Shown here piece by piece: positions 24,319-46,963 of a stretch of DNA of 64,000 nucleotides (positions within the stretch are counted from its first letter, which is position 1; each line of letters starts with the position of its first letter). Source of the DNA: Flavobacterium resistens. Its GTDB lineage: Bacteria; Bacteroidota; Bacteroidia; Flavobacteriales; Flavobacteriaceae. A program made the position numbers and the translations under genes. Below the pieces are notes generated by a model, which saw only the letters and a list, made by a program, of their open reading frames with translations, had not been told where the DNA came from and made no database searches. The stretch lies in contig NZ_FXTA01000003.1 in assembly GCF_900182645.1 (NCBI RefSeq), positions 62,001 to 126,000 of the forward strand. Direction: 5' to 3'.

Positions 24319-26078
24319 ATGGAACAATTTGTAGTATCGGCACGTAAATATCGCCCGCAAACCTTTAAGGATGTTGTGGGGCAAAAAGCCATTACAAACA
24401 CGTTGTTGAACGCTATTGACAGCAATCACCTTGCTTCTGCTCTTTTGTTCACCGGACCACGTGGAGTTGGAAAAACTACTTGTGCGCGTATCTTGGCCAG
24501 AAAAATAAATCAGCCTGGATATGATGATCCAAATGAAGATTTTGCATTTAACGTTTTTGAGTTAGATGCCGCTTCAAACAACTCGGTTGATGACATTCGT
24601 AATTTGATTGATCAGGTTCGAATCCCGCCACAAACCGGACAATACAAAGTATATATTATTGATGAGGTTCATATGTTGTCTTCGGCTGCTTTTAATGCTT
24701 TCCTGAAAACATTGGAAGAACCGCCAAAACATGCTATTTTTATTTTAGCAACAACAGAAAAACACAAAATCATTCCGACGATTTTATCTCGTTGCCAGAT
24801 ATTTGATTTCAAAAGAATTACAGTAAAAGATGCTAAAGAACATTTGGCTGATGTTGCTGCGAGTCAGGGAATCAATTTTGAAGATGATGCACTGCACATT
24901 ATTGCTCAAAAAGCTGATGGTGCAATGCGTGATGCTTTGTCTATTTTTGATCGTGTAGTTTCGTATTGCGGAACTAACTTAACGCGTCAGGCTGTAACTG
25001 AAAACCTAAACGTTTTAGATTACGAAACCTATATTTCAATCACAGACTTGATTCTGGAAAACAAAATTCCAGACTTATTGATTGCCTACAACGACATACT
25101 TTCAAAAGGTTTTGATGGACATCATTTTATTGCTGGTTTAGCCTCTCATTTTAGAGATTTGTTAGTGAGCAAAACTCCTGCAACTATTGCTTTATTAGAA
25201 GTTGGAGAACAGGCACAACAAATGTATGGCGTTCAAGCGCAGAAATGCTCTCAGGACTTTTTATTAAAAGGAATCGACATTGCAAATGACTGCGATTTAA
25301 AATATAAATTGAGTCAGAATCAGCGACTTTTAGTTGAATTATGCTTAATGCAATTAGCCTCTATCAATTTTGATGGAGAAAAAAAAAAGCTGAGCAATTC
25401 ATAATTCCGCCTACTTATTATAAAAATGGAAGCTTTTCGATTGTTGAAGTTCAAACCTCAAAATCGAAAGTTGAAAGTCAGACTGTTTCCGAAAATATAA
25501 AATCAGAAAATGTAACTGCTCCGACTGAAGTTGAAAGTCCAAAAGACACAACTATTTCTGAAACTCCGAAAGTTCAGACTTCACAAACTCCAGAAACAGA
25601 ATCTAGCAATACTCCAAAAGTTTCTGCATTTTCTCTTGCCAGTATCCGCAAGAAAAAAGAATTGGAACAAAGCAGCAAATCTTACGTTAAACCTTCTTCT
25701 GTATTACCTACTGAGGAATTTAATGAAACGGATATGCTTTTGCATTGGAATAAATATGCGGAGCGTTTAGGCCAGAAAGGTCTAAAAATCATGGAATCTA
25801 TATTATTGATCAGCGATCCTGTTTTAAACGGAACAAGAATCACTTATGAGTTACCAAATGAAGGTTCTAAACTGGAATTTGAAAGTCAGATGAATGGGTT
25901 ACTTGGACATTTAAAAGGACATTTACACAATCACGACATTACGATCGAGGTAATTGTAAATGAACAAGCTGAAACCAAAAGAACTTATAATAATCAGGAT
26001 CGTTATAATCGTCTTTTAGAAATCAATCCAAATCTTGAACTTTTGCGCTCAACATTTGGACTGGATTTAAAAGATTAA
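24319..26078 (+). CDS. dnaX: DNA polymerase III gamma/tau subunit, expressed across a -1 frame break
   Basis: The clamp-loader ATPase is encoded in two frames. Frame one (24319-25404, 361 residues) has the AAA+ core: GPRGVGKTT (Walker A, ~47-55), VYIIDEVHMLSS, sensor 1 TTEKHKIIPT and LSRCQIFDFKRI. It stops eight codons after an A10 run at 25379-25388. The -1 frame stays open from that run to 26078. It encodes a Ser/Thr/Glu-rich linker and a tau-like C-terminal domain (VLPTEEFNETDMLLHWNKYA...). A single extra A (or removal of two) would give a 586-residue tau. Either programmed slippage makes both isoforms, or the run holds a sequencing indel. The usual four-Cys zinc module after Walker A is absent, replaced by KINQPGYDDPNEDF. 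Confidence 0.9.
25379..25389 (+). promoter_or_regulatory. Candidate frameshift/slippage site in dnaX
   Basis: Ten A's followed by G contain the heptamer A-AAA-AAG in the zero frame (25383-25389), identical to the E. coli dnaX slip site. The preceding GGAG (25375-25378) is Shine-Dalgarno-like. The zero-frame stop follows at 25402-25404. Without RNA or protein evidence I cannot tell ribosomal from transcriptional slippage, or either from an assembly indel. Confidence 0.6.
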
Positions 26079-31887: not shown

Positions 31888-32439
31888 ATGAAAAGTAAAT
31901 CTACTCTTGAAAAAGCAGTGAAATTTGTAGCAAATTGTAAGTCTATTTTTTCGTTCAGAAAAAACATCTTCGATAAAAGTATTTTTTCATTACTGCTTTG
32001 TTTGATTACAACCGTTTCATTTGCGCAATCTGGTTCGTGTAGAGCAACTCTGGGAGTTGAAAAAGACAGAATCTACAGCAATGCAGGCAAGGACGGTGCT
32101 TATTTTACACTGGTTTTATCCAATACAGGAAATTCAGATGATGTTTATAACTTAAGCGTTTTAAACATAAACTCCAGCTGCTCGAACAATGATGGTAGTA
32201 GTTCGTCTCAAAACGTGAATTTAACCGGCAGTTTTTTGGATAATAGCAATGTTCCAATCACTTCTATCTCGCTTTCGGCCAATCAAACAGCTACTTTTTC
32301 AGTTCATTTAACAGTACCGCAGGGTACGGCCTACAACAAATGGAACTGCATGCAAATTAATGCTACATCAACAAACTGCGCTAATTACACAGTGAACACT
32401 GTTGTACATACGATCGTAAATAATCCTTCTGAAAATTAA
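31888..32439 (+). CDS. Small secreted protein upstream of giant adhesin
   Basis: This 183-residue protein has an unusually long N-terminal leader (~46 residues): a basic, KSIF-repeating n-region, then a hydrophobic stretch ending SFAQ. The mature ~137 residues look like one immunoglobulin-type beta sandwich of the COG1361/NEW3 kind (YFTLVLSNTGNSDDVYNLSVL...LSANQTATFSVHLTVPQG), with paired Cys residues. It lacks a T9SS C-terminal domain. It ends 49 bases before the giant adhesin ATG and is probably co-transcribed, possibly as an accessory or binding partner. Function inferred from position only. Confidence 0.6.
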   Translation: MKSKSTLEKAVKFVANCKSIFSFRKNIFDKSIFSLLLCLITTVSFAQSGSCRATLGVEKDRIYSNAGKDGAYFTLVLSNTGNSDDVYNLSVLNINSSCSNNDGSSSSQNVNLTGSFLDNSNVPITSISLSANQTATFSVHLTVPQGTAYNKWNCMQINATSTNCANYTVNTVVHTIVNNPSEN

Positions 32440-32488
32440 ATATTCACAGCAAAATATTTAGTTGTTTTTCAATTTAAATTCCTATAAA

Positions 32489-35400
32489 ATGAAAAAAACA
32501 TTACACTTTATCCATTTAATATTAAGAGCTGGCATAACGTTTTGTATGTTGCTTTTCTTATTTTCATCAACCAAAGGTTTTGCCCAAACAATAACACCAA
32601 CGAAAACTGTTACTGTTGCGCCTGGGGTTTGTGGAGCGCTGGATGTAGAATTAAAAATTCAGGGTTCTAATCCGGTCGCAAGACCTTTAGAAGTTGTATT
32701 AGTTATTGACGTATCAGGAAGTATGGGTGATGGAAACAATCCTAAACCGTTATCCCGTGCACAAGATGCTGCTACAGATTTTATCAATAAAATGTTTCTT
32801 CCTGCTAATAATCCAACAGGAAAAAACAAAGTGGCAATTGTGACCTATAGTACAACTGCAACAATTAGAAGAAATCTAACTGATAGCACTGGCCAGTCCG
32901 ATTTAATATCGGTCATAAATGGACTTACTGCAAATGGAAATACTAATATTCAGGACGGACTTGTAAAAGCAAATACGGTTTTAAATAGTGCAACCTACGA
33001 CTGCGCAACAGCTAGAAGTATTGTATTATTAACAGATGGTGTTGCGAATGTAACTGGAACAAACGGCGACAGCTGTTCATCAGGACAACAAGGTTCTTGT
33101 ATACAAAGTGCCATCACTGCAGCCAATAATGCAAAAAGTAGAACTGTATCGGGTACTGTTTACAACAATCAGATTTTTTCCGTTGGATTATTTGGCGCCA
33201 TTTCAGGCGGAACTCAAACAGATGCTGAATATACTTTAAATCAAATTCAGTCTGGAGGTTCATTTTTCACAGAAACTGCTGCAGACTTAACAGGTATCTA
33301 CAACCAAATTTTCACTCAATTATCATGGGTTGCCAAACAGATTACAGGGACGCCTTTTGAAAAAGAAACTGTAGGTGCTAATTTTACAATTGGGTCAGTT
33401 ACGGTAACTAAAGGAACTACCACAATTACCGGACAAGAAATTGCCTGGAATATTGATTTCTTAAATGTTGAGACAATAACTTTAAAATATCGATTGACTC
33501 CAAAACCAAATACATGTGGAAGTCAACAAGTGAGTTCATCGAAACTTTTCTTTCAAAACGCCCTTTGTACTAATGCAACGCAAGACATAGTTTCACCTAT
33601 GACGAATGTTCCGTGTCCAATTATAACAATTGCTTCACAAACAAATGTAACATGTTATGGAGGAAACAATGGAGCTATCACTCTTAATACTCCAACAGGA
33701 GGACAAGGTCCATACACTTACAAATGGACAAAAAACGATGTTGATTTTGCTACAACAAAAGATATTTCTGGTTTAAGTGCTGGAATATACAAAGTTAGTG
33801 CAACAGATAGTAATAATTGTGCAACAGGTATTTTAACTATTGAAATAACGCAACCTGCTGGAGCTTTAGCAATTGCCGCATCGTCTAAAACAGATGTTCT
33901 TTGTTATGGAGCAAGTACAGGAAGCGTTACAGCTGGAACTGTAACAAACTCCGTGGGAACTGTTACTTATTCTTGGAAAAATGCCTCTAACAATGTAGTT
34001 GGAACAACTCCATCAGTATCTAATTTACCAGCCGGAACTTATACCGTGACTGTAACAGATTCCTGTTCGAGCAAAACTGATACTGTAACAATTGGACAGC
34101 CAAACGCTGCTTTAGTTGCTGCTGTAAATACCAAAGTAGATGTAAAATGTAAAGGAGATTCTACCGGTTCGGCTACTGCATCTGCAACCGGAGGAACAGG
34201 AACTTATTCCTATTCTTGGAATACTGTCCCTGTTCAAACTGGAGCAACTGCAAGCGGACTTAAAGCTGGAACATACATTGTAACAGTAACAGACCAAAAT
34301 GGATGTACCGATACTGAAACAGTTACAATCGGCGAGCCATCAAATACTTTGGTTGCCGCAATAAATTCTAAAACAGATGTAAGCTGCAAAGGTGATTCTA
34401 CTGGTTCTGCAACCGCTTCTGCTACTGGTGGAACAGCGGGGTATTCTTATTCTTGGAATACGGTTCCTGTGCAAACTGGAGCTACTGCAAACGGACTTAA
34501 AGTTGGAACATACATTGTAACAGTAACAGACCAAAATGGATGTACCGATACCGAAACAGTTACAATCGGCGAGCCATCAAATACTTTGGTTGCCGCAATA
34601 GACTCTAAAACAGATGTAAACTGTAAAGGTGACTCTACTGGTTCTGCAACCGCTTCGGCTACAGGTGGAACAGCAAGCTACTCTTACTCTTGGAATACCG
34701 TTCCTGTGCAAACTGGAGCTACTGCAACAAATCTTGCTGCAGGAACTTATATCGTGACAGTGACCGATTCAAAAGGATGTACCGATACTGAAACAGTGAC
34801 AATCAGCGAACCTTCTAATGCTTTACTTGCCGCAATAGATTCTAAAACTAATGTAAACTGCAAAGGCGATGCTACTGGTTCTGCAACAGCTTCCGCTACT
34901 GGAGGAACAGCGGGCTACTCTTACTCTTGGAATACGGTTCCTGTACAGACTGGAGCAACTGCAACAAATCTTGTTGCCGGAACTTATATCGTGACTGTGA
35001 CTGATTCTAAAGGATGTACCGATACTGAAACAGTGACAATCGGAGAACCTTCTGATGCTTTGACTGCTGCAATAGATTCTAAAACTGATGTAAACTGCAA
35101 AGGCGATGCTACTGGTTCTGCAACAGCTTCAGCTACTGGAGGAACAGCGGGCTACTCTTACTCTTGGAATACGGTTCCTGTACAGACTGGAGCAACTGCA
35201 ACAAATCTTGTTGCCGGAACTTATATCTTGACTGTGACTGATTCTAAAGGTTGCACCGATACTGAGACAGTGACAATCGGAGAGCCTTCAAATGCTTTGG
35301 TTGCCGCAATAGACTCTAAAACAGATGTGAACTGTAAAGGAGATGCGACTGGTTCTGCAATGGCTTCAGCTACTGGCGGAACAGCGGGCTACTCCTATTC

Positions 35401-38400
35401 TTGGAATACCGTTCCTGTTCAGACTGGAGCTACTGCATCAAATCTTGTTGCAGGAACTTATATCGTGACTGTGACCGATTCTAAAGGATGTACTGATACT
35501 GAGACAGTGACAATCGGAGAACCTTCTAATGCTTTGATTGCTGCAATAGATACTAAAACTGATGTAAGCTGTAAAGGTGATGCTACTGGTTCTGCAACAG
35601 CTTCGGCTACTGGCGGAACAGCAGGCTACTCTTACTCTTGGAATACTGTTCCAGTTCAGACTGGAGCTACTGCATCAAATCTTGTTGCAGGAACTTATAT
35701 CGTTACAGTGACTGATTCTAAAGGATGTACCGATACTGAAACAGTGACAATCGGAGAGCCTTCAAATGCTTTACTTGCCGCAATAGATTCTAAAACTGAT
35801 GTAAGCTGTAAAGGCGACGCAACTGGTTCTGCAACAGCTTCGGCTACTGGAGGAACAGCGGGCTACTCATATTCTTGGAATACTGTTCCGGTTCAGACTG
35901 GAGCTACTGCATCAAATCTTGTTGCCGGAACTTACATCGTGACAGTGACCGACTCTAAAGGATGTACCGATACTGAGACAGTGACAATCGGAGAGCCTTC
36001 TAACACTTTAGTTGCTACAATCGACTCTAAAACTGATGTAAGCTGTAAAGGCGACGCGACTGGTTCTGCAACAGCTTCGGCTACTGGAGGAACAGCAGGC
36101 TACTCCTATTCTTGGAATACTGTTCCTGTTCAGACTGGAGCTACTGCATCAAATCTTGTTGCTGGAACTTATATTGTGACAGTGACCGATTCAAAAGGAT
36201 GTACCGATACTGAAACAGTGACAATCGGAGAGCCTACAAATGCTTTACTTGCCGCAATAGATTCTAAAACTGATGTAAGCTGTAAAGGCGACGCAACTGG
36301 TTCTGCAACAGCTTCGGCTACTGGCGGAACAGCAGGATACTCTTATTCTTGGAATACTGTTCCTGTTCAAACTGGAGCTACTGCATCAAATCTTGTTGCA
36401 GGAACTTACATCGTGACAGTGACAGACTCTAAAGGATGTACCGATACTGAAACAGTGACAATCGGAGAGCCAACAAATGCTTTACTTGCTGCAATAGATT
36501 CTAAAACTGATGTAAGCTGCAAAGGCGATGCAACTGGTTCTGCAACAGCTTCGGCTACTGGCGGAACAGCGGGCTACTCTTATTCTTGGAATACTGTTCC
36601 GGTACAGACTGGAGCTACTGTAACAAATCTTGTTGCTGGAACTTATATCGTGACAGTGACTGATTCTAAAGGATGTACCGATACCGAGACAGTGACAATC
36701 GGAGAGCCAAGTGCAGTTTTAAGCTGCTCAATTGTACAAAACAAAGCTGTTAGTTCTAACGGATTAAGTGACGGAGAGGCAACAGTTACTCCGCTTGGAG
36801 GAAACGGAGGCTACACTTACTTGTGGGACAACAACGAAACTACTCAAAAAGCACTTGCACTTAGTGCAGGTCTTCATTCAGTAACCGTAACGGATTCTAA
36901 AGGTTGCAAAACAACTTGTACTGTGACCATCACTGAACCAAATGTTCTTTCTTGCAGCATTACTCAGGACGATCCTGCCAAATGCTACGGAGACAACAAC
37001 GGTAAAGCGACTGTAGTGGCAATAGGTGGAAATGGCGAGTACACTTATTTATGGGACAACGGCGAAACAACTGCTCAGGCTATCGGATTGACAGCCGGCA
37101 CTCACGAAGTAACCGTTACTGACAAATTAGGCTACAAAACAAAATGTTCAGTTGTAATCAGCCAACCACAAGCACCTTTAGCCGCTGCAATAGATTCTAA
37201 AACTGATGTAAACTGCAAAGGTGATGCTACTGGTTCTGCAACAGCTTCTGCTACAGGAGGAAACGGAACTTACTCTTATACTTGGAACACTGTTCCAGTC
37301 CAAAATACAGCTACTGCAACAAATCTTGTTGCAGGAACTTATATCGTGACAGTGACTGATTCAAAAGGATGTATCGATACTGAAACAGTGACAATCGGTG
37401 AGCCTTCTAACACTTTAGTTGCTGCAATCGACTCTAAAACTGATGTAAGCTGTAAAGGCGACGCAACTGGTTCTGCAACAGCTTCGGCTACTGGCGGAAC
37501 AGCAGGATACTCTTATTCTTGGAATACCGTTCCTGTACAGACTGGAGCAACTGCAACAAATCTTGTTGCCGGAACTTATATTGTGACAGTGACCGATTCA
37601 AAAGGATGTACTGATACTGAAACAGTGACAATCGGAGAGCCTACAAATGCTTTACTTGCTGCAATAGATTCTAAAACTGATGTAAGCTGCAAAGGCGATG
37701 CAACTGGTTCTGCAACAGCTTCGGCTACTGGCGGAACAGCAGGATACTCTTATTCTTGGAATACTGTTCCGGTTCAGACTGGAGCTACTGCATCAAATCT
37801 TGTTGCGGGAACTTATATCGTGACTGTGACTGATTCAAAAGGATGTACCGATACTGAAACAGTGACAATCGGAGAGCCAAGTGCAGTTTTAAGCTGCTCA
37901 GTTGTACAAAACAAAGCTGTTAGTTCTAACGGATTAAGTGACGGAGAAGCGACTGTTACTCCACTTGGAGGAAACGGAGGCTACACTTACTTGTGGGACA
38001 ACAACGAAACTACTCAAAAAGCAATTGCACTTAGTGCAGGTCTTCATTCAGTAACCGTAACGGATTCTAAAGGTTGCAAAACAACTTGTACTGTAACCAT
38101 CACTGAACCAAATGTTCTTTCTTGCAGCATTACTCAGGACGATCCTGCCAAATGCTACGGAGACAACAACGGTAAAGCGACTGTAGTGGCAATAGGTGGA
38201 AATGGCGAGTACACTTACTTATGGGACAACGGCGAAACAACAGCTCAGGCAACTGGCTTAACGGCAGGTTTACATAACGTAACAGTTACTGATAAATTAG
38301 GTTATACTACTACTTGTACTGTGACTATCGGCCAGCCACAATCGGCTTTGACAGCTTCAATCACTTCTAAAACTGATGTGAACTGTAAAGGAGATGCAAC

Positions 38401-41400
38401 TGGTTCTGCAACAGCTTCTGCAACTGGTGGAAATGGAACTTACTCTTATTCCTGGAATACTGTTCCAGTACAAAATACTGCAACAGCAACTGGCCTTATC
38501 GCAGGAACTTACATAGTAACGGTGACAGATGCAAAAGGATGTACGGATACCGAACAAGTAATCATATCTGAACCAGCCAATCCATTGACTGCTTCTATCT
38601 CTTCTAAAACTGATGTAAACTGTAAAGGAGACGCAACTGGGTCTGCAACAGCTTCTGCAACTGGTGGAACTGGAACTTACTCTTATTCTTGGAATACTGT
38701 TCCGGTACAGACTTCAGCTACAGCAACTGGTCTTATTGCAGGAACTTACATTGTGACTGTAACAGATGAAAAAGGTTGTACAGATACTGAACAAGTAATC
38801 ATTTCTGAACCAGCCAATCCATTGACTGCTTCAATCACTTCTAAAACTGATGTGAACTGTAAAGGAGATGCAACTGGTTCTGCAACAGCTTCTGCAACTG
38901 GCGGAACTGGAACTTACTCTTATTCTTGGAATACTGTTCCAGTACAGACTTCAGCTACAGCAACTGGTCTTATTGCAGGAACTTACATTGTGACTGTAAC
39001 AGACGAAAAAGGTTGTACAGATACCGAACAGGTAATTATATCTGAGCCTCAAGCGCCATTGACAGCGACTAAATCACAAATAAATCCTGGTTGTGGCGGT
39101 GCTGCTACTGGATCTGCTACTGTTGTTGCTTCTGGCGGAACTGCTCCATATATTTACTCTTGGAATACAAATCCTGTACAGACTACAGCTACAGCAAGTA
39201 ATCTTGCTTCAGGAAGTTATACAGTAATAATCACTGATGCTAAAGGATGTACACATAGCGAATCATTCGAAATTATCGACGGAGATTCTATCTTGCCAGT
39301 AATTGATCCGCTTCCAGCAACTTCAACAATTAACTGTCCGGCAGAACCTGTATTTGCTCAGGCAACTGCAACAGATTTAAATGGTACAATTTCTTCTTTA
39401 ACTTATGAAGATACTGTTACTCCAGGCGATTGCGCTGGATCATACACTAAAACAAGAACTTGGACAGCTAAAGATGCTTGTGGAAATGTTTCACTTCCGG
39501 TTAGTCAGACAATAATTGTTCAGGATATTACAGCTCCAACTTGGAAAACTGAAATTGCTTCTTTAAACAGAACTGTGGAATGCAGTGATCAGCAAGCTTT
39601 GGCATCGGCGCAAGCCTTATTCCCAACAGCAACTGATGCATGCGATACTGATGTTTCAAATATTGTAAAAGTAAGCGGTCAGTTTATGGCTTCTGAAGGA
39701 TGCTCAAATGCTGGGACTTACACTAATACCTGGACTGTAAAAGATGCTTGCGGAAACACTTCTGAAACATTCACTCAAGTAATTACAATTCAAGATACTA
39801 CAGCACCAACTTGGACAACACAAACTGCTTCTTTAAACAAAACTATCGAATGCAGTAATCAGGAAGCTTTGGCATCGGCGCAAGCTTTATTCCCAACAGC
39901 AACTGATACATGTGATACTGATGTTTCTAACGTTGTAAAAGTAAGTGGCCAATTTATAGCTTCTGAAGGATGTGCTAATTCTGGAACTTATACTAATACT
40001 TGGACTGTGAAAGACGATTGTGGAAATACATCAGCTACTTTCACTCAAGTAATTACAATTCAAGATACTACAGCACCAACTTGGACAACACAAACTGCTT
40101 CTTTAAACAAAACTATCGAATGCAGTGATCAGGAAGCTTTGGCATCGGCGCAAGCCTTATTCCCAACAGCAACTGACGCATGTGATACTGACGTATCTAA
40201 CGTTGTAAAAGTAAGTGGCCAATTTGTAGCTTCTGAAGGATGTTCAAATGCTGGAACTTATACCAATACTTGGACTGTAAAAGATGATTGTGGAAATACT
40301 TCTGGAACTTTCACTCAAATAATTACCATCCAAGACACTACAAATCCAGTCTTTAATGGTGAACTTCCAACTGATATTACAGTTTCATGTGATGCAGTTC
40401 CGGAACCAGCTAATGTTCAGGCTTCTGATAATTGCGGTGGTGATTTACCAATTGTATTGTCTGAGACTAAAAGCGATATTAAAAATGAATGTGGAACAGA
40501 ATATACGCTGACACGCAAATGGACAACAAGTGATTGTTCTGGAAACACAGCTTCATTTACTCAAATCATAACAGTTAGAGACACAACACCTCCAACAGGA
40601 ACTGCTCCAGCAAATGTTGCGGGCTTACAAAGCACAGCTGAAATTCCAACTGGTAGCCCAGATGATATTACAGATGAAGCTGATAATTGTGGAGGAAAAG
40701 TAACCGTTACTGTAAGCGATTCTAACAATGGAGCTAATGGTTGCGATGGAAATGCTTATGTACTGACTAGAACTTATACTTTAACAGATTGTGCAGGAAA
40801 CAAAACAGAATTAGTTCAGACATTTACTGTTGACAATAAAGTATCAGTTTCTGGAGTTCCAACAAATGTTAGCTGTCTTGACGGAACTGATGGTTCTATC
40901 GCTGTAACCAGCAGCCCTGGTGCAACGGTTGTAATTACAAATGCAAATAACGAAGTGGTTGGTAATACTAACTTGCCTGCTGGAACTTATACACTTACTG
41001 CAACTGCACCTGTTAATGGTGAAGGCCAAGTTTGTACCGCAACAGCAACTGTTACCATTACCCAACCAAATTATAAAGTGAAAGTATCTGGACAGGTAAT
41101 TAATGTTGACACTAACACTCCTATTGCGAATGTGCCTGTAACATTGATCCCTCAAGGTACTACACCTGGTCCGATTTTAATTCGCATTACTAATGCCAAT
41201 GGAGAATATTCATTCTCTGGCATGGTTGCAGGAAGTTATTTAGTTCAGGTTCAAGATGCTAATTTGAATAGTGCTTATCAATTATATCCTGTAAATTCAA
41301 GCTTGTTCTTTACAACTCTTGAAGAATGTAAATTCCAAGTACATGACTTCTTATATGGAAAATCAAAACTTCCAGTTTTAGGAGATTATGTTTGGTACGA

Positions 41401-43804
41401 CACCAACAGCAACGGAATTCAGGATGAATGGTATGATGCCAACAATGATGGCGTGGTAACTAAAAATATTCCAGATGCCGATGGTGCTATTGACTATAGC
41501 CTTTGGGAATGGCTTGACTTGAATGGAGACGGAAGCTATACTGGCCCACAGAATGCTGGTGAGTTAAATGCCGGTGGATTCGGAAACGCTAAGAGTGCTA
41601 ATGTTATTGTCGATGGTCCAAACGGATATCATGATGAGGTAATTGTCGGAATTCAAGGTTTCTGGAGAAACAGACCAGAAGGTGAAAATCCTTATGGAGA
41701 ATACAAAGTTAAACTTGTAAGAGATGCCAACTTAGATGCTGTTGCAGCTGCTTTAGGAGCAACTGGATTAGTAAAAGTATTGCCATCAACAAATACAGAT
41801 AAAAAAGCTGTCGCCAAAACTGGCAAAACTCAAATGCACACCGTTTGTACAACAACCAGTGCTGATGGCTACGTTGTAAATGTAACTCCGGAAGATTTAG
41901 TTCATTTAGATATTGACTTTGGAGTTAACTGTAAAGAGTACCAAGATATTGTTGCAAATGACGACAATGGCGGACCTTTCCCAGGAGTTAATCATACAAC
42001 ACCAAATGTGTTGAATGTACTAACAAATGATACACTTGAAGGTCAACCGATAACTGCTTCAGATGTGATTATCACAACGGTAACTCCAAACGAATTTTTA
42101 CAATTGAATCCTGATGGTTCTGTAGATATTCTGCCAAATGCGCCAGTTGGAACATTAACAATGGTATATCAAATTTGTGAAGCAGACCAAACTTCAAATT
42201 GTGATACAGCAACTGTAACCATTACAATTGAAGCTCCGGTTATGACAGTTACTGCGACATCTATTTGTGTAAACGATGTTCCGTATCTTGACTATTCAGC
42301 AACGCCAGTAAACTTTACACCTGTAAACGGCGTAACTATTACATGGGCTGACAGTAATAATAATGTAGTCACTACGATGACCAACTTACCGCTTAGCGGA
42401 AGAGTATTATGGCCAGGTGCCGTAGTAGATCAGAATGGTAATGGTATTGACTGGCCAGGATGGGTATTCCAGGATAATAAATGGATTCAGGCTCCAGACG
42501 GATTTGAAAATCTTCGTCCAACAGCTACAGTTACTATCTCAGTTAACCCGAGTGAAACGATCGTTGTAAATTATCCGCCAGCTGATCCTTACTGTATCGC
42601 AAGACCAACATTTGCAATTGTTGCCAATGATGATACTGCAGGACCAATAAACGGAACAACAGGAGGAACAAATGTAATCAACGTTTATACAAATGATACA
42701 TTAAATGGTTCACCAGTAAATCCAAGTGATGTTACTTTGACAACAGTAACGCCAGACCCTAAAGGAGTACTGACATTAAATCCTGACGGATCAATTACTG
42801 TAGCGCCAAACACGCCTGCGGGAACATACACTCTGACTTATCAGATTTGTGAAAATGCTGATTTTGGAAACTGCGATACCGCAATTGTAACCGTGACAGT
42901 TTCTTCTTCTCCAATAGTTGCTAATGATGATAGTTATACTAATATTGGCTGTAACCGATTTGGAGTAGTTGGAAATTTACTAAGTAATGATTTACTAAAT
43001 GGTCTTCCGGTGACCTTGCAATTGGTAAACTTCAGTTTAGTACCACAGAACACAGATGTAAAATCTGATCCAAATATAACTGTAGATACTGCAGGTAATT
43101 TGACTGTAGGAAGTGCAACAGCTTCTGGTACTTACACTTATACTTATCAGATTTGTGAAAAACTAAACCCAAATAATTGTGATACTGGTACCATTACTAT
43201 AACAGTTATTCCAAATGGTGTAACAACGGTAAGCAGTTCAGCTTGTAATGATGACTCAACTTTAATCGACTTGCTTGCTCTTCTTCCGGCAGACACCCCT
43301 AGAAATGGAACTTGGGTTGACACAAATAACACTAATGCATTGAGAGATGGTATCTTAAATGCACTTGGATTAGCAATTGGCAACTACGCATTTGAGTACA
43401 AAATTGCTGATCAAAACTGCCCTCGAAGCATTGTACTTAATATGGAAATCAATGATGACTGTAAAGTATTACCATGTGAAAACATAGTTGTACACAATGC
43501 TTTCTCTCCAAATGGAGATGGTATAAATGATGTATTTGTAATTGATGGAATTGGCGACTTAACCTGCTACCCAGGAAATACAGTCGAGATCTATAATCGT
43601 TGGGGAATATTAGTCTTTGAAACAACTGACTATAATAATACAACGAATGCGTTTGATGGAACATCACGAGGAAGAACAACTGTTAAACAATCCGAAGGAT
43701 TGCCAACAGGAACTTACTTCTACATTGTGACTTACAAATCTTTAGACGGTAATAATGTAATTCAGTATAACAAAAAAGACGGATACCTCTATCTTTCAAA
43801 ATAA
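32489..43804 (+). CDS. Giant SprB-like repeat adhesin with VWA domain and type-B T9SS sorting domain
   Basis: Use ATG 32489 (3,771 residues); the frame extends to a TTG at 32462 without leader value. Signal peptide ends at ~33 (FAQ). Residues ~64-310 are a von Willebrand A domain with MIDAS D73-V-S-G-S77 and LLTDGVANVTGT. From ~380 to ~2265 run about 24 SprB-type repeats of 73-85 residues (typically 79), many near-identical (SCKGDATGSATASATGG). Three 90-residue HYR-like repeats follow, then SdrD_B-like modules (LGDYVWYDTNSNGIQDEW) and cadherin-like units (ANDDTAGP...NVYTNDTLNG). The C-terminus is the gliding-motility-associated type-B domain (NAFSPNGDGINDVFVIDG ... YLYLSK). It is a surface adhesin exported by T9SS, with the SprF-type protein downstream as likely partner. 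Not SprB itself, which is longer. Confidence 0.88.
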   Translation: MKKTLHFIHLILRAGITFCMLLFLFSSTKGFAQTITPTKTVTVAPGVCGALDVELKIQGSNPVARPLEVVLVIDVSGSMGDGNNPKPLSRAQDAATDFINKMFLPANNPTGKNKVAIVTYSTTATIRRNLTDSTGQSDLISVINGLTANGNTNIQDGLVKANTVLNSATYDCATARSIVLLTDGVANVTGTNGDSCSSGQQGSCIQSAITAANNAKSRTVSGTVYNNQIFSVGLFGAISGGTQTDAEYTLNQIQSGGSFFTETAADLTGIYNQIFTQLSWVAKQITGTPFEKETVGANFTIGSVTVTKGTTTITGQEIAWNIDFLNVETITLKYRLTPKPNTCGSQQVSSSKLFFQNALCTNATQDIVSPMTNVPCPIITIASQTNVTCYGGNNGAITLNTPTGGQGPYTYKWTKNDVDFATTKDISGLSAGIYKVSATDSNNCATGILTIEITQPAGALAIAASSKTDVLCYGASTGSVTAGTVTNSVGTVTYSWKNASNNVVGTTPSVSNLPAGTYTVTVTDSCSSKTDTVTIGQPNAALVAAVNTKVDVKCKGDSTGSATASATGGTGTYSYSWNTVPVQTGATASGLKAGTYIVTVTDQNGCTDTETVTIGEPSNTLVAAINSKTDVSCKGDSTGSATASATGGTAGYSYSWNTVPVQTGATANGLKVGTYIVTVTDQNGCTDTETVTIGEPSNTLVAAIDSKTDVNCKGDSTGSATASATGGTASYSYSWNTVPVQTGATATNLAAGTYIVTVTDSKGCTDTETVTISEPSNALLAAIDSKTNVNCKGDATGSATASATGGTAGYSYSWNTVPVQTGATATNLVAGTYIVTVTDSKGCTDTETVTIGEPSDALTAAIDSKTDVNCKGDATGSATASATGGTAGYSYSWNTVPVQTGATATNLVAGTYILTVTDSKGCTDTETVTIGEPSNALVAAIDSKTDVNCKGDATGSAMASATGGTAGYSYSWNTVPVQTGATASNLVAGTYIVTVTDSKGCTDTETVTIGEPSNALIAAIDTKTDVSCKGDATGSATASATGGTAGYSYSWNTVPVQTGATASNLVAGTYIVTVTDSKGCTDTETVTIGEPSNALLAAIDSKTDVSCKGDATGSATASATGGTAGYSYSWNTVPVQTGATASNLVAGTYIVTVTDSKGCTDTETVTIGEPSNTLVATIDSKTDVSCKGDATGSATASATGGTAGYSYSWNTVPVQTGATASNLVAGTYIVTVTDSKGCTDTETVTIGEPTNALLAAIDSKTDVSCKGDATGSATASATGGTAGYSYSWNTVPVQTGATASNLVAGTYIVTVTDSKGCTDTETVTIGEPTNALLAAIDSKTDVSCKGDATGSATASATGGTAGYSYSWNTVPVQTGATVTNLVAGTYIVTVTDSKGCTDTETVTIGEPSAVLSCSIVQNKAVSSNGLSDGEATVTPLGGNGGYTYLWDNNETTQKALALSAGLHSVTVTDSKGCKTTCTVTITEPNVLSCSITQDDPAKCYGDNNGKATVVAIGGNGEYTYLWDNGETTAQAIGLTAGTHEVTVTDKLGYKTKCSVVISQPQAPLAAAIDSKTDVNCKGDATGSATASATGGNGTYSYTWNTVPVQNTATATNLVAGTYIVTVTDSKGCIDTETVTIGEPSNTLVAAIDSKTDVSCKGDATGSATASATGGTAGYSYSWNTVPVQTGATATNLVAGTYIVTVTDSKGCTDTETVTIGEPTNALLAAIDSKTDVSCKGDATGSATASATGGTAGYSYSWNTVPVQTGATASNLVAGTYIVTVTDSKGCTDTETVTIGEPSAVLSCSVVQNKAVSSNGLSDGEATVTPLGGNGGYTYLWDNNETTQKAIALSAGLHSVTVTDSKGCKTTCTVTITEPNVLSCSITQDDPAKCYGDNNGKATVVAIGGNGEYTYLWDNGETTAQATGLTAGLHNVTVTDKLGYTTTCTVTIGQPQSALTASITSKTDVNCKGDATGSATASATGGNGTYSYSWNTVPVQNTATATGLIAGTYIVTVTDAKGCTDTEQVIISEPANPLTASISSKTDVNCKGDATGSATASATGGTGTYSYSWNTVPVQTSATATGLIAGTYIVTVTDEKGCTDTEQVIISEPANPLTASITSKTDVNCKGDATGSATASATGGTGTYSYSWNTVPVQTSATATGLIAGTYIVTVTDEKGCTDTEQVIISEPQAPLTATKSQINPGCGGAATGSATVVASGGTAPYIYSWNTNPVQTTATASNLASGSYTVIITDAKGCTHSESFEIIDGDSILPVIDPLPATSTINCPAEPVFAQATATDLNGTISSLTYEDTVTPGDCAGSYTKTRTWTAKDACGNVSLPVSQTIIVQDITAPTWKTEIASLNRTVECSDQQALASAQALFPTATDACDTDVSNIVKVSGQFMASEGCSNAGTYTNTWTVKDACGNTSETFTQVITIQDTTAPTWTTQTASLNKTIECSNQEALASAQALFPTATDTCDTDVSNVVKVSGQFIASEGCANSGTYTNTWTVKDDCGNTSATFTQVITIQDTTAPTWTTQTASLNKTIECSDQEALASAQALFPTATDACDTDVSNVVKVSGQFVASEGCSNAGTYTNTWTVKDDCGNTSGTFTQIITIQDTTNPVFNGELPTDITVSCDAVPEPANVQASDNCGGDLPIVLSETKSDIKNECGTEYTLTRKWTTSDCSGNTASFTQIITVRDTTPPTGTAPANVAGLQSTAEIPTGSPDDITDEADNCGGKVTVTVSDSNNGANGCDGNAYVLTRTYTLTDCAGNKTELVQTFTVDNKVSVSGVPTNVSCLDGTDGSIAVTSSPGATVVITNANNEVVGNTNLPAGTYTLTATAPVNGEGQVCTATATVTITQPNYKVKVSGQVINVDTNTPIANVPVTLIPQGTTPGPILIRITNANGEYSFSGMVAGSYLVQVQDANLNSAYQLYPVNSSLFFTTLEECKFQVHDFLYGKSKLPVLGDYVWYDTNSNGIQDEWYDANNDGVVTKNIPDADGAIDYSLWEWLDLNGDGSYTGPQNAGELNAGGFGNAKSANVIVDGPNGYHDEVIVGIQGFWRNRPEGENPYGEYKVKLVRDANLDAVAAALGATGLVKVLPSTNTDKKAVAKTGKTQMHTVCTTTSADGYVVNVTPEDLVHLDIDFGVNCKEYQDIVANDDNGGPFPGVNHTTPNVLNVLTNDTLEGQPITASDVIITTVTPNEFLQLNPDGSVDILPNAPVGTLTMVYQICEADQTSNCDTATVTITIEAPVMTVTATSICVNDVPYLDYSATPVNFTPVNGVTITWADSNNNVVTTMTNLPLSGRVLWPGAVVDQNGNGIDWPGWVFQDNKWIQAPDGFENLRPTATVTISVNPSETIVVNYPPADPYCIARPTFAIVANDDTAGPINGTTGGTNVINVYTNDTLNGSPVNPSDVTLTTVTPDPKGVLTLNPDGSITVAPNTPAGTYTLTYQICENADFGNCDTAIVTVTVSSSPIVANDDSYTNIGCNRFGVVGNLLSNDLLNGLPVTLQLVNFSLVPQNTDVKSDPNITVDTAGNLTVGSATASGTYTYTYQICEKLNPNNCDTGTITITVIPNGVTTVSSSACNDDSTLIDLLALLPADTPRNGTWVDTNNTNALRDGILNALGLAIGNYAFEYKIADQNCPRSIVLNMEINDDCKVLPCENIVVHNAFSPNGDGINDVFVIDGIGDLTCYPGNTVEIYNRWGILVFETTDYNNTTNAFDGTSRGRTTVKQSEGLPTGTYFYIVTYKSLDGNNVIQYNKKDGYLYLSK
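33630..39285 (+). repeat. Tandem SprB-type repeats within the adhesin gene
   Basis: About 24 in-frame units, the standard one 237 bases (for example unit starts at 34351 and 34588). Units roughly 34.3-36.7 kb differ by only a few bases. A five-unit block is repeated at an offset of exactly 1,170 bases (36711 versus 37881), including two divergent units (SCSIVQNKAVSSNG and SCSITQDDPAKCYG) that mark the duplication. Confidence 0.9.
39531..40340 (+). repeat. Three 270-base HYR-like repeats
   Basis: Near-identical 270-base units start at 39531, 39801 and 40071, each encoding 90 residues (TAPTWTTQTASLNKTIEC ... TFTQVITIQD). Periodicity is exact and sequence divergence is low. Confidence 0.9.
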
Positions 43805-43817
43805 ACCCAGGCTGCAA

Positions 43818-43845
43818 AGGCTGATATAAATAACTATATCAGCCT
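43818..43845 (+). promoter_or_regulatory. Intercistronic stem-loop after the adhesin stop
   Basis: A perfect 11-bp stem (AGGCTGATATA / TATATCAGCCT) with a 6-base loop starts 13 bases after the stop. No T-run follows, so it looks more like an mRNA-stabilising or processing hairpin than a terminator. An outer GCTG/CAGC pairing may extend it. Confidence 0.6.
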
Positions 43846-43860
43846 GATACAGCAGAGAAC

Positions 43861-43901
43861 AAAAAATCCGGGAATTGAAAGTATAATATCGTGGATTTTT
43901 T
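43861..43901 (+). terminator. Weak terminator-like inverted repeat
   Basis: AAAAAATCC and GGATTTTTT arms flank a ~23-base loop. It could partly separate adhesin and sprF transcription; the long loop makes termination uncertain. Confidence 0.4.
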
Positions 43902-43953
43902 AGAGGATTTCATTAATAATTCAATAGTAAAATTGAAATAATAAATATCTACT

Positions 43954-44871
43954 ATGAGAACAAAATTATTTTACTTCGTCATTCTGTTTGTAACTATTGC
44001 AGGTCACGCGCAGCAAGATGCTCAATATACGCAATACATGTACAACACAATAAACATAAATCCTGCCTATGCAGGTTCTCGTGGAGCCTTAAGCATTTTC
44101 GGTTTGTACCGTACACAATGGGTTGGTTTGGATGGTGCTCCTGAAACAAGCAGTTTCTCCGTAAATACTCCTATAAATAATAGTAATCTGGGAATTGGAG
44201 GTTCGCTCGTTAACGATAAAATTGGTCCAACAAATGAAAACAATATTTCTGTTGACGTTTCATATACAATACAAACCTCAGCAAATTTCAAACTTTCATT
44301 TGGTATCAAAGGAACTGCCAATATATTCAATTTGGATGTAAGCAAACTGAATCCTGATATTTCAGGAGATCCACAGTTTCAGGATTTGGATAATAAATTT
44401 ACGCCTAACGTAGGAGCCGGAGTTTACTGGCATTCAGATAAAGCTTATGTTGGTTTTTCTATCCCAAATTTCATCGAAACAAATCGCTACGATGATAATG
44501 ATATTGCCATTTTCAAAGACAAAATCAATTATTATTTAATGGCAGGTTATGTATTTGATCTTGATAAATATCAGTATATCAGATTCAAACCAGCTGTACT
44601 TACTAAAATGGTTGAAGGTGCGCCACTTCAAGTAGATCTTTCAGCGAACTTTATGTTCTTTGACAAGTTTGTTGCCGGTGTCGCTTATAGATGGAGTGCT
44701 TCATTAAGTGCTATGGTTGGGTTCCAAATCACTGACGGTCTTTATTTAGGTTACGGTTACGACCATGAAACCACAAACCTGAATAATTATAATTCAGGAT
44801 CACACGAGATATTCCTGCGTTATGAATTCTTTACTAAAAATGGTAAAATAACAACTCCTCGTTTCTTCTAA
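43954..44871 (+). CDS. PorP/SprF-family type IX secretion outer-membrane protein
   Basis: The 305-residue protein has a signal peptide (to ~GHAQ, residue 19). Next comes the family hallmark QDAQYTQYMYNTININPAYAGSRG, then a beta barrel ending FLRYEFFTK. SprF-type proteins are needed for secretion or attachment of cargo with a type-B C-terminal domain, and each usually serves the adhesin encoded immediately upstream. Here that is the 3,771-residue protein, 149 bases away. The OmpA-family gene follows after 11 bases. It is a paralogue of SprF, not necessarily SprF itself, so no symbol is given. Confidence 0.92.
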   Translation: MRTKLFYFVILFVTIAGHAQQDAQYTQYMYNTININPAYAGSRGALSIFGLYRTQWVGLDGAPETSSFSVNTPINNSNLGIGGSLVNDKIGPTNENNISVDVSYTIQTSANFKLSFGIKGTANIFNLDVSKLNPDISGDPQFQDLDNKFTPNVGAGVYWHSDKAYVGFSIPNFIETNRYDDNDIAIFKDKINYYLMAGYVFDLDKYQYIRFKPAVLTKMVEGAPLQVDLSANFMFFDKFVAGVAYRWSASLSAMVGFQITDGLYLGYGYDHETTNLNNYNSGSHEIFLRYEFFTKNGKITTPRFF

Positions 44872-46881: not shown

Positions 46882-46963
46882 AAAAAAAAAAAAAAAAAAA
46901 AAAATTAAAACTTAAAAAAAAAAAAAAAAAAAATTTTTTTAAAAAAAAAAAAAAAAAAAAAAA
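46882..46963. repeat. Poly-A / poly-T low-complexity tract
   Basis: Three A-runs of 23, 20 and 23 bases are broken by short ATTAAAACTT-like and seven-T segments. The tract lies between a plus-strand and a minus-strand terminator. Such long pure runs occur nowhere else in the window and the exact lengths may not be reliable. Confidence 0.85.

Follow-up and report, generated by a model that had tools for sequence, protein, structure and literature searches.

Split dnaX genes in Flavobacterium and its relatives: a conserved A10 tract with an abutting hairpin as a candidate programmed transcriptional-slippage cassette

The dnaX locus and its two frames

The window analyzed here, a stretch of 64,000 nucleotides from Flavobacterium resistens, carries a dnaX gene that encodes its two forms, gamma and tau, in separate reading frames meeting at an A10 run (Table 1); the arrangement is real and conserved. 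The zero frame begins at an ATG and its product matches NCBIfam dnaX_nterm at 380.5 bits (cut-off 250), corresponding to the clamp-loader ATPase and lid, with a domain III match that lies under the Pfam cut-off. Across the junction this frame reads GAA AAA AAA AAG CTG AGC AAT TCA TAA, so that the stop is the fifth codon past the A10 run and not the eighth, as a preliminary description of the locus had counted. The same description had the zero frame ending at 25404 and the -1 frame open to 26078, which the sequence confirms, and had called the product of the latter a tau-like C-terminal part. This 232-residue product, ending at a TAA (26076-26078), does match the tail of the NCBIfam gamma/tau model PRK14971 (E 1.7e-25), the match being limited to profile positions 411-613 of 614; no Pfam family was matched at E 0.01. 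Between them the two frames cover PRK14971 positions 1-370 and 411-613, each scoring below the model's full-length cut-off, and the gene has the ATPase core followed by a tau C-terminal part that characterizes dnaX gamma/tau.

Table 1. Features of the split dnaX gene, in window coordinates
Feature	Positions	Strand	Basis
dnaX zero frame, gamma, 361 aa	24319..25404	+	ORF; NCBIfam dnaX_nterm; Pfam
Stem-loop, 8-bp stem, 4-nt loop	25359..25378 (arms 25359-25366/25371-25378)	+	Fold, synonymous null, distance profile, pair counts
A10 tract, candidate slippage site	25379..25388	+	Sequence; conservation across loci
-1 frame, tau-specific C-terminal part	25380..26078	+	ORF, PRK14971 tail, dN/dS
TGA ending the +1 frame just past the tract	25391..25393	+	Direct reading
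TAA ending the zero frame, gamma terminus	25402..25404	+	ORF

Gamma is the standard product of this gene and tau requires a shift, so that the roles known from E. coli are reversed. The preliminary description had already drawn this inversion from the zero-frame stop and the -1 tau, and it holds, the same split recurring in other Flavobacterium genomes (see below). By arithmetic, the gain of one A would give a tau of 586 residues and the loss of two a tau of 585, while the TGA just past the tract would terminate a gamma-like product of the +1 frame.

That a TAA stands between the frames could also mean that gamma is made alone and that the -1 frame is a separate or decaying gene. We consider this very improbable. 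Against 11 relatives of our choosing, dN/dS was 0.08-0.29 for the tau part and 0.02-0.04 for the gamma part, and the tau part is therefore evolving under purifying selection. Among 104 Flavobacterium-level loci with tau in the -1 frame, none has an ATG within 15 codons past the junction and just two have any start codon there; a separate tau gene with an internal start was rejected, as no conserved start was found. In addition, the two parts are fused in a single frame in most family genomes outside the genus, among the matches listed.

Conservation of the tract and drift of the tau frame

Genomes were drawn at the level of the genus (387 of 398 with a match), family (158 of 159), class (116 of 119) and phylum (176 of 178), and 180 further stretches were taken for junction scoring. 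The first set comprised 309 loci, 306 of them with a DnaX N-terminal match; removal of three duplicates left 303, and four more were dropped from the counts to give 299, namely L299 and L300 (no run of at least five, L300 being cut by its contig), L236 (A13, at the end of its contig) and L281 (split but lacking a tract). From the class draw, 66 of the 116 matches were scored (26 returned by the search and 40 chosen by us), 63 of them with a run; the three without a run of at least five, L363, L372 and L410, have single long open frames (638, 690 and 628), and the tau frame is unreliable in L365 and L413 because both are contig-cut. The phylum draw outside the class contributed 12 of about 132 matches, many taken for a short-looking frame, and they therefore say little about frequency. 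Naming was confined to the nearest loci, and the sample is therefore skewed to close relatives. Loci are termed Flavobacterium-level when the core is at least 86% identical to that of the window, and other Flavobacteriaceae at 65-86%. The tau frame was taken as the longest open frame past the run, which agreed with the tblastn tau match in 270 of 271 loci, the lone exception being L281.

For each locus we scored the longest run of A close to where the core ends. It amounts to a tract of at least A9 in 353 of 362 Bacteroidota loci (A10 in 312, A11 in 24 and A9 in 17), although draft errors may underlie some of the A9 or A11 cases. In the first set it stands at the junction in 297 of 299 loci; in the same loci, runs of this length are absent from 296 kb of upstream dnaX coding sequence and occur twice in the 203 kb that encode tau. 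A conserved A-run of nine or more, one mark of Thermus-type slippage, is thus a feature of these genes. Throughout the genus draw the open frame around the core spans just 362-424 codons in all of the matches listed. Comparison with dnaX from other Flavobacterium genomes, for which the preliminary description had proposed an alignment, recovers the same split: 109 of the 113 loci in the Flavobacterium set were readable, and 101 of these have a zero-frame stop near the run followed by a -1 frame of 204-245 codons, with A10 in 98 and A11 in three. Of the remaining eight, seven have a zero-frame tau, and in L037 an A9 run is followed by tau in +1.

These counts bear directly on the suspicion, raised in the preliminary description, that a one-base homopolymer error in the assembly had split a gene that is truly single-frame. 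An A10 run is hard for some sequencers, and the A9 of two loci could be such errors. Conservation across many separately sequenced genomes nevertheless refutes the idea for the junction at large, which leaves it hardly any credibility: the -1 split also recurs in single-contig genomes (L010, L018, L028, L033), several changes of frame arise from indels outside the run, and the stops and hairpin are conserved alongside the tract. The error reading had been tied to relatives with both parts in one frame and no A-run. Single-frame relatives are indeed the rule in the family outside the genus, among the matches listed, but they keep the tract. As to the two A9 loci, L037 (Flavobacterium sp. YO12) and L128 (G451) have flanks like those of their relatives and a tau frame unlike that of their close relatives; they could be genuine one-base flips or draft errors.

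Over the 353 loci with a tract, tau lies in the zero frame in 192, in -1 in 153 and in +1 in eight, and the A-run starts in codon phases 0, 1 and 2 with no constraint on the base that follows. A FastTree phylogeny built from the 299 core proteins requires at least 27 switches of the tau frame (29 with weak branches collapsed, 19 when limited to the 263 A10 loci), as against about 104 for shuffled frame labels. Several of these flips are small indels beside a retained tract and a few are changes of run length. Many zero-frame genera, for example, have A10-TAGCAGACATTACATAATTCC or near variants, while in the window the sequence is A10-GCTGAGCAATTCATAATTCC, with one base less ahead of the shared ATAATTCC; five Flavobacterium-level loci (L065, L068, L074, L076 and L079) have returned to frame. 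Such flips can be harmless only if the tract itself provides the other frames.

The stops past the tract show a similar regularity. In 345 of the 353 loci both off-frame stops fall within nine codons. In the first set the later of the two lies at a median of 5 codons past the tract, compared with 14-15 at controls in the same tau frames. Both other frames are thus closed soon after the run, another mark of the Thermus type. All nine scored loci with a run shorter than nine have a zero-frame tau, and in these the later off-frame stop recedes to a median of 19 codons (Mann-Whitney p 3e-6, uncorrected for relatedness). The association of tract loss with zero-frame tau, nine of nine, gives a Fisher p of only 0.21 without the Flavobacterium-level loci, and L281 goes the opposite way.

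This last locus (G415:C3:15366-17468) has a split dnaX with tau in the -1 frame and no A-tract, the junction reading GGAAAAGTAAGGGG; a different recoding signal may operate there, or the gene may be degenerate.

A hairpin abutting the tract

Immediately upstream of the tract, folding gives a stem-loop whose 3' end abuts the first A with zero gap. A tract-adjacent stem of at least six pairs is present in 99% of the 110 Flavobacterium-level loci (control 19%), and in other genera of the family in 83% of 129 zero-frame loci (control 13%) and 48% of 23 loci with a non-zero tau frame (control 9%). The mean fold is -8.5 kcal/mol in the 110 Flavobacterium-level loci and -6.9 kcal/mol in 152 other Flavobacteriaceae loci, each against -2.5 for synonymous recodings, and the natural fold exceeding the recoded ones means that the protein does not dictate the hairpin. 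In both family groups the distance profile peaks at distance 0 only (-8.4 and -6.4), being about -0.5 elsewhere with weak peaks to -2.4.

Pairing is likewise maintained. Standard pairs fill 80% of cells over all 152 other Flavobacteriaceae loci, a count made without selection, and 41-49% when the arms are slid. Covariation was scored in 83 of 124 distinct windows, omitting the Flavobacterium-level ones and 17 that we judged to be out of register, a choice that tilts toward structure. In these, 76% of cells are paired (71% shuffled, 37-62% slid), two-sided changes occur in 34 cells compared with 16 when shuffled (none of 500 shuffles reaching 34), and further pair types number 18 compared with 14 (one of 500 shuffles as high), all counts being inflated by relatedness; pairs that changed on both sides number four, which is no excess, 306 of 500 shuffles matching it. 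The hairpin thus covaries, by measures that mostly exceed 500 shuffles, and the comparisons point to a stem-loop conserved as a structure directly 5' of the tract in Flavobacteriaceae. An antisense terminator was rejected by inspection, as the T-run of the minus strand comes before the hairpin.

Beyond the family the picture is uneven. The first set includes 37 distant loci, whose mean fold of -3.2 is not above the synonymous null (-2.6), with 14% in the best 5%; 22% of them have stems of at least six pairs (control 17%). By comparison, 56 tract-bearing loci of the class draw have stems of unrelated sequence at the same place, with a mean of -5.9 at distance 0, weakening to about -1.3 to -2.8 at other upstream positions. 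A value of -5 or better is reached by 34 of the 56, as against 33% in the synonymous null, and 11 rank in the top 5% against their own null. A further 25 distant loci average -3.8 (null -2.3), but since the value is still -3.5 five bases off, the peak is not sharp, and none was seen in 10 loci of other classes. From these folds the hairpin is firm in Flavobacteriaceae; in other Bacteroidia it is likely, though uneven, and outside them it is unsupported.

Within the family set the hairpin is absent from 7 of 16 A11 loci (for example L107, L108, L253 and L273) and from 18 of 241 A10 loci, as if a longer tract compensated for its loss. The raw Fisher p of 0.0002 loses significance over eight independent pairs on supported branches, and the relationship is a lead only.

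Transcriptional slippage and competing accounts

The tract, the hairpin and the stops, like the conservation of all three and the frame flips, can be read directly from the genomes. The explanation that we favor, at odds of roughly two in three, is that dnaX is a programmed transcriptional-slippage cassette promoted by the hairpin, in which the frame of tau is nearly neutral. Its order would be a nascent-RNA hairpin, A10, stops in both unwanted frames and then the tau frame. Over A10 the RNA-DNA hybrid would consist of rA:dT pairs alone, which is where RNA polymerase would slip, helped to do so by the hairpin as it folds at the hybrid's upstream edge. The resulting mRNAs would carry differing numbers of A; ordinary translation would yield gamma from the A10 mRNA and from one other class, and tau from mRNA with 11 or eight. 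Slippage in the cell, its stimulation by the hairpin and the ratio of the products are what we infer, the combination of a hairpin with a kept run suggesting an RNA polymerase made to stutter so that both proteins arise. Because such a tract would supply all three frames, the tau frame could be nearly neutral, which would explain why it has flipped so often. A broader version, to which we give somewhat better than even odds, would make Bacteroidia dnaX frame-neutral as a whole: a terminator-like hairpin and A10 would lead RNA polymerase to give all three frames, and the frame of the second half would drift. On that broader version, and with the same slight preponderance of belief, selection would act only on the hairpin, the tract length and the off-frame stops.

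Several parts of this scheme have precedents. Antonov et al. (2013; PMC3711429) listed 17 split dnaX genes from 12 genera in a GeneTack cluster, nine of them with A10, and proposed slippage; like the gene described here, these are two-ORF dnaX genes in which tau needs recoding, and the pattern of a gamma stop just past a poly-A run with tau in another frame is found in the window as well. Those genes had been found as frameshift genes, whereas the present set also contains unsplit relatives that bear the tract, flips, stops in both frames and a 5' hairpin; the main text of that paper, in the portion available, mentions a hairpin for the E. coli-type signal only. Production of tau by frameshifting in some bacteria is noted by Atkins et al. 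(2016). In Thermus thermophilus dnaX, transcriptional slippage occurs at an A9 run with stops in both other frames (PMC5009743, PMC1088944), and the likeness extends to gamma and tau arising from one gene; it differs in having tau in the zero frame, and the accessible parts of these sources describe no 5' hairpin. The RNA-DNA hybrid of Thermus RNA polymerase is given as 9-10 bp (PMC5009743). A nascent stem-loop that enables slippage is reported for a Roseiflexus insertion sequence (Penno et al., 2015; PMC5009743), where it likewise lies directly 5' of the slip motif. That element has T5C5 and is reported to give a one-base deletion only, in contrast to the homopolymer and replication gene considered here; a tract of hybrid length with an abutting hairpin matches its arrangement, and by analogy may work alike in dnaX. 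Split dnaX genes needing recoding for tau are thus already published, and what is apparently new is the stimulator and the frame-neutral evolution. No mention of a dnaX 5' hairpin, of frame flips or of so widespread a tract was found in the open-access literature searched, which leaves many journals outside it.

E. coli dnaX offers an alternative, in that both genes carry A-AAA-AAG and make tau and gamma from a single gene. Under this account, ribosomal -1 frameshifting at the heptamer would yield Flavobacterium tau from a uniformly A10 mRNA, and zero-frame genera would obtain gamma in the same way. The preliminary description was correct in finding the heptamer, at 25383-25389, and 118 of the 140 loci with a -1 tau have it in their zero frame. 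The only tRNA-Lys found has a UUU anticodon (three genes among 50 tRNA matches in a draft genome), so that a case against ribosomal shifting from the tRNAs failed. Further, a one-base change is reported to be able to swap the roles at about 50% efficiency (PMC5009743), and the 70-base downstream fold is slightly better than control in 41 non-zero loci outside the genus (17% versus 2% below a z of -2). As the operative mechanism, on the other hand, the heptamer is probably not what acts. It is missing from 22 of the 140 -1 loci and from 129 of 153 zero-frame loci, eight loci need a +1 shift, and seven bases would suffice, yet A10 is retained in any phase and before any base. In E. coli the stem-loop is downstream; here none is clear, the hairpin being on the opposite side. 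No signal of downstream structure was seen with 40- and 70-base windows in 60 Flavobacterium-level and 60 zero-frame-genera loci, the former folding no better than their in-gene control. Upstream hairpins that adjoin the site reportedly weaken -1 shifting (PMC6321510). A GGAG does stand directly 5' of the tract; Bacteroidia ribosomes are reported to be blind to Shine-Dalgarno sequences, which are not generally used there (PMC9976891), and a stimulator of the E. coli type is unlikely to work in this class. Frame- and phase-independence therefore fit transcriptional slippage better than ribosomal frameshifting, since slippage would account for the free phase, the free next base, the +1 loci, the absence of the heptamer and the lack of downstream structure. 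We regard the ribosomal account as unlikely.

It is also conceivable, if again improbable and only a shade less so, that the tract slips while the 5' hairpin acts not on RNA polymerase but on the ribosome, blocking backward slip, or on mRNA stability. Ribosomes are reported to slide along A-runs (PMC4363877), and the attenuation of -1 shifting by upstream hairpins noted above would suit such a role; a zero gap next to a tract of hybrid length is, by contrast, the geometry of stem-loop-driven slippage (PMC5009743). This account has the slippage part in common with the hairpin-promoted cassette.

If hairpin-promoted transcriptional slippage is correct, what had been suspected to be a sequencing error would become a widespread control element of the replication machinery, and dnaX would be a chromosomal housekeeping gene with stem-loop-stimulated transcriptional slippage. 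It would imply that part of a core gene can change its reading frame nearly without constraint, and it would bear on the importance of gamma where ribosomal frameshifting is not used. Gene callers would likely mis-handle dnaX in many Bacteroidota, while the hundreds of natural variants, with tracts of 9-11, with or without the hairpin and in three frames, would allow the tuning of slippage by hairpins to be gauged.

The preliminary description had further pointed to suspicious homopolymers at 46.88-46.96 kb. The runs are indeed there, comprising A23, A20 and A23 with a T-run between (46882-46963), and may be genuine or an assembly artifact, but they occupy a convergent intergenic space just past a terminator-like hairpin and, because they lie between genes, say nothing about dnaX. 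Elsewhere in the window, positions 32001-44000 have a GC content of 0.38-0.43, as against about 0.30-0.35 in the rest.
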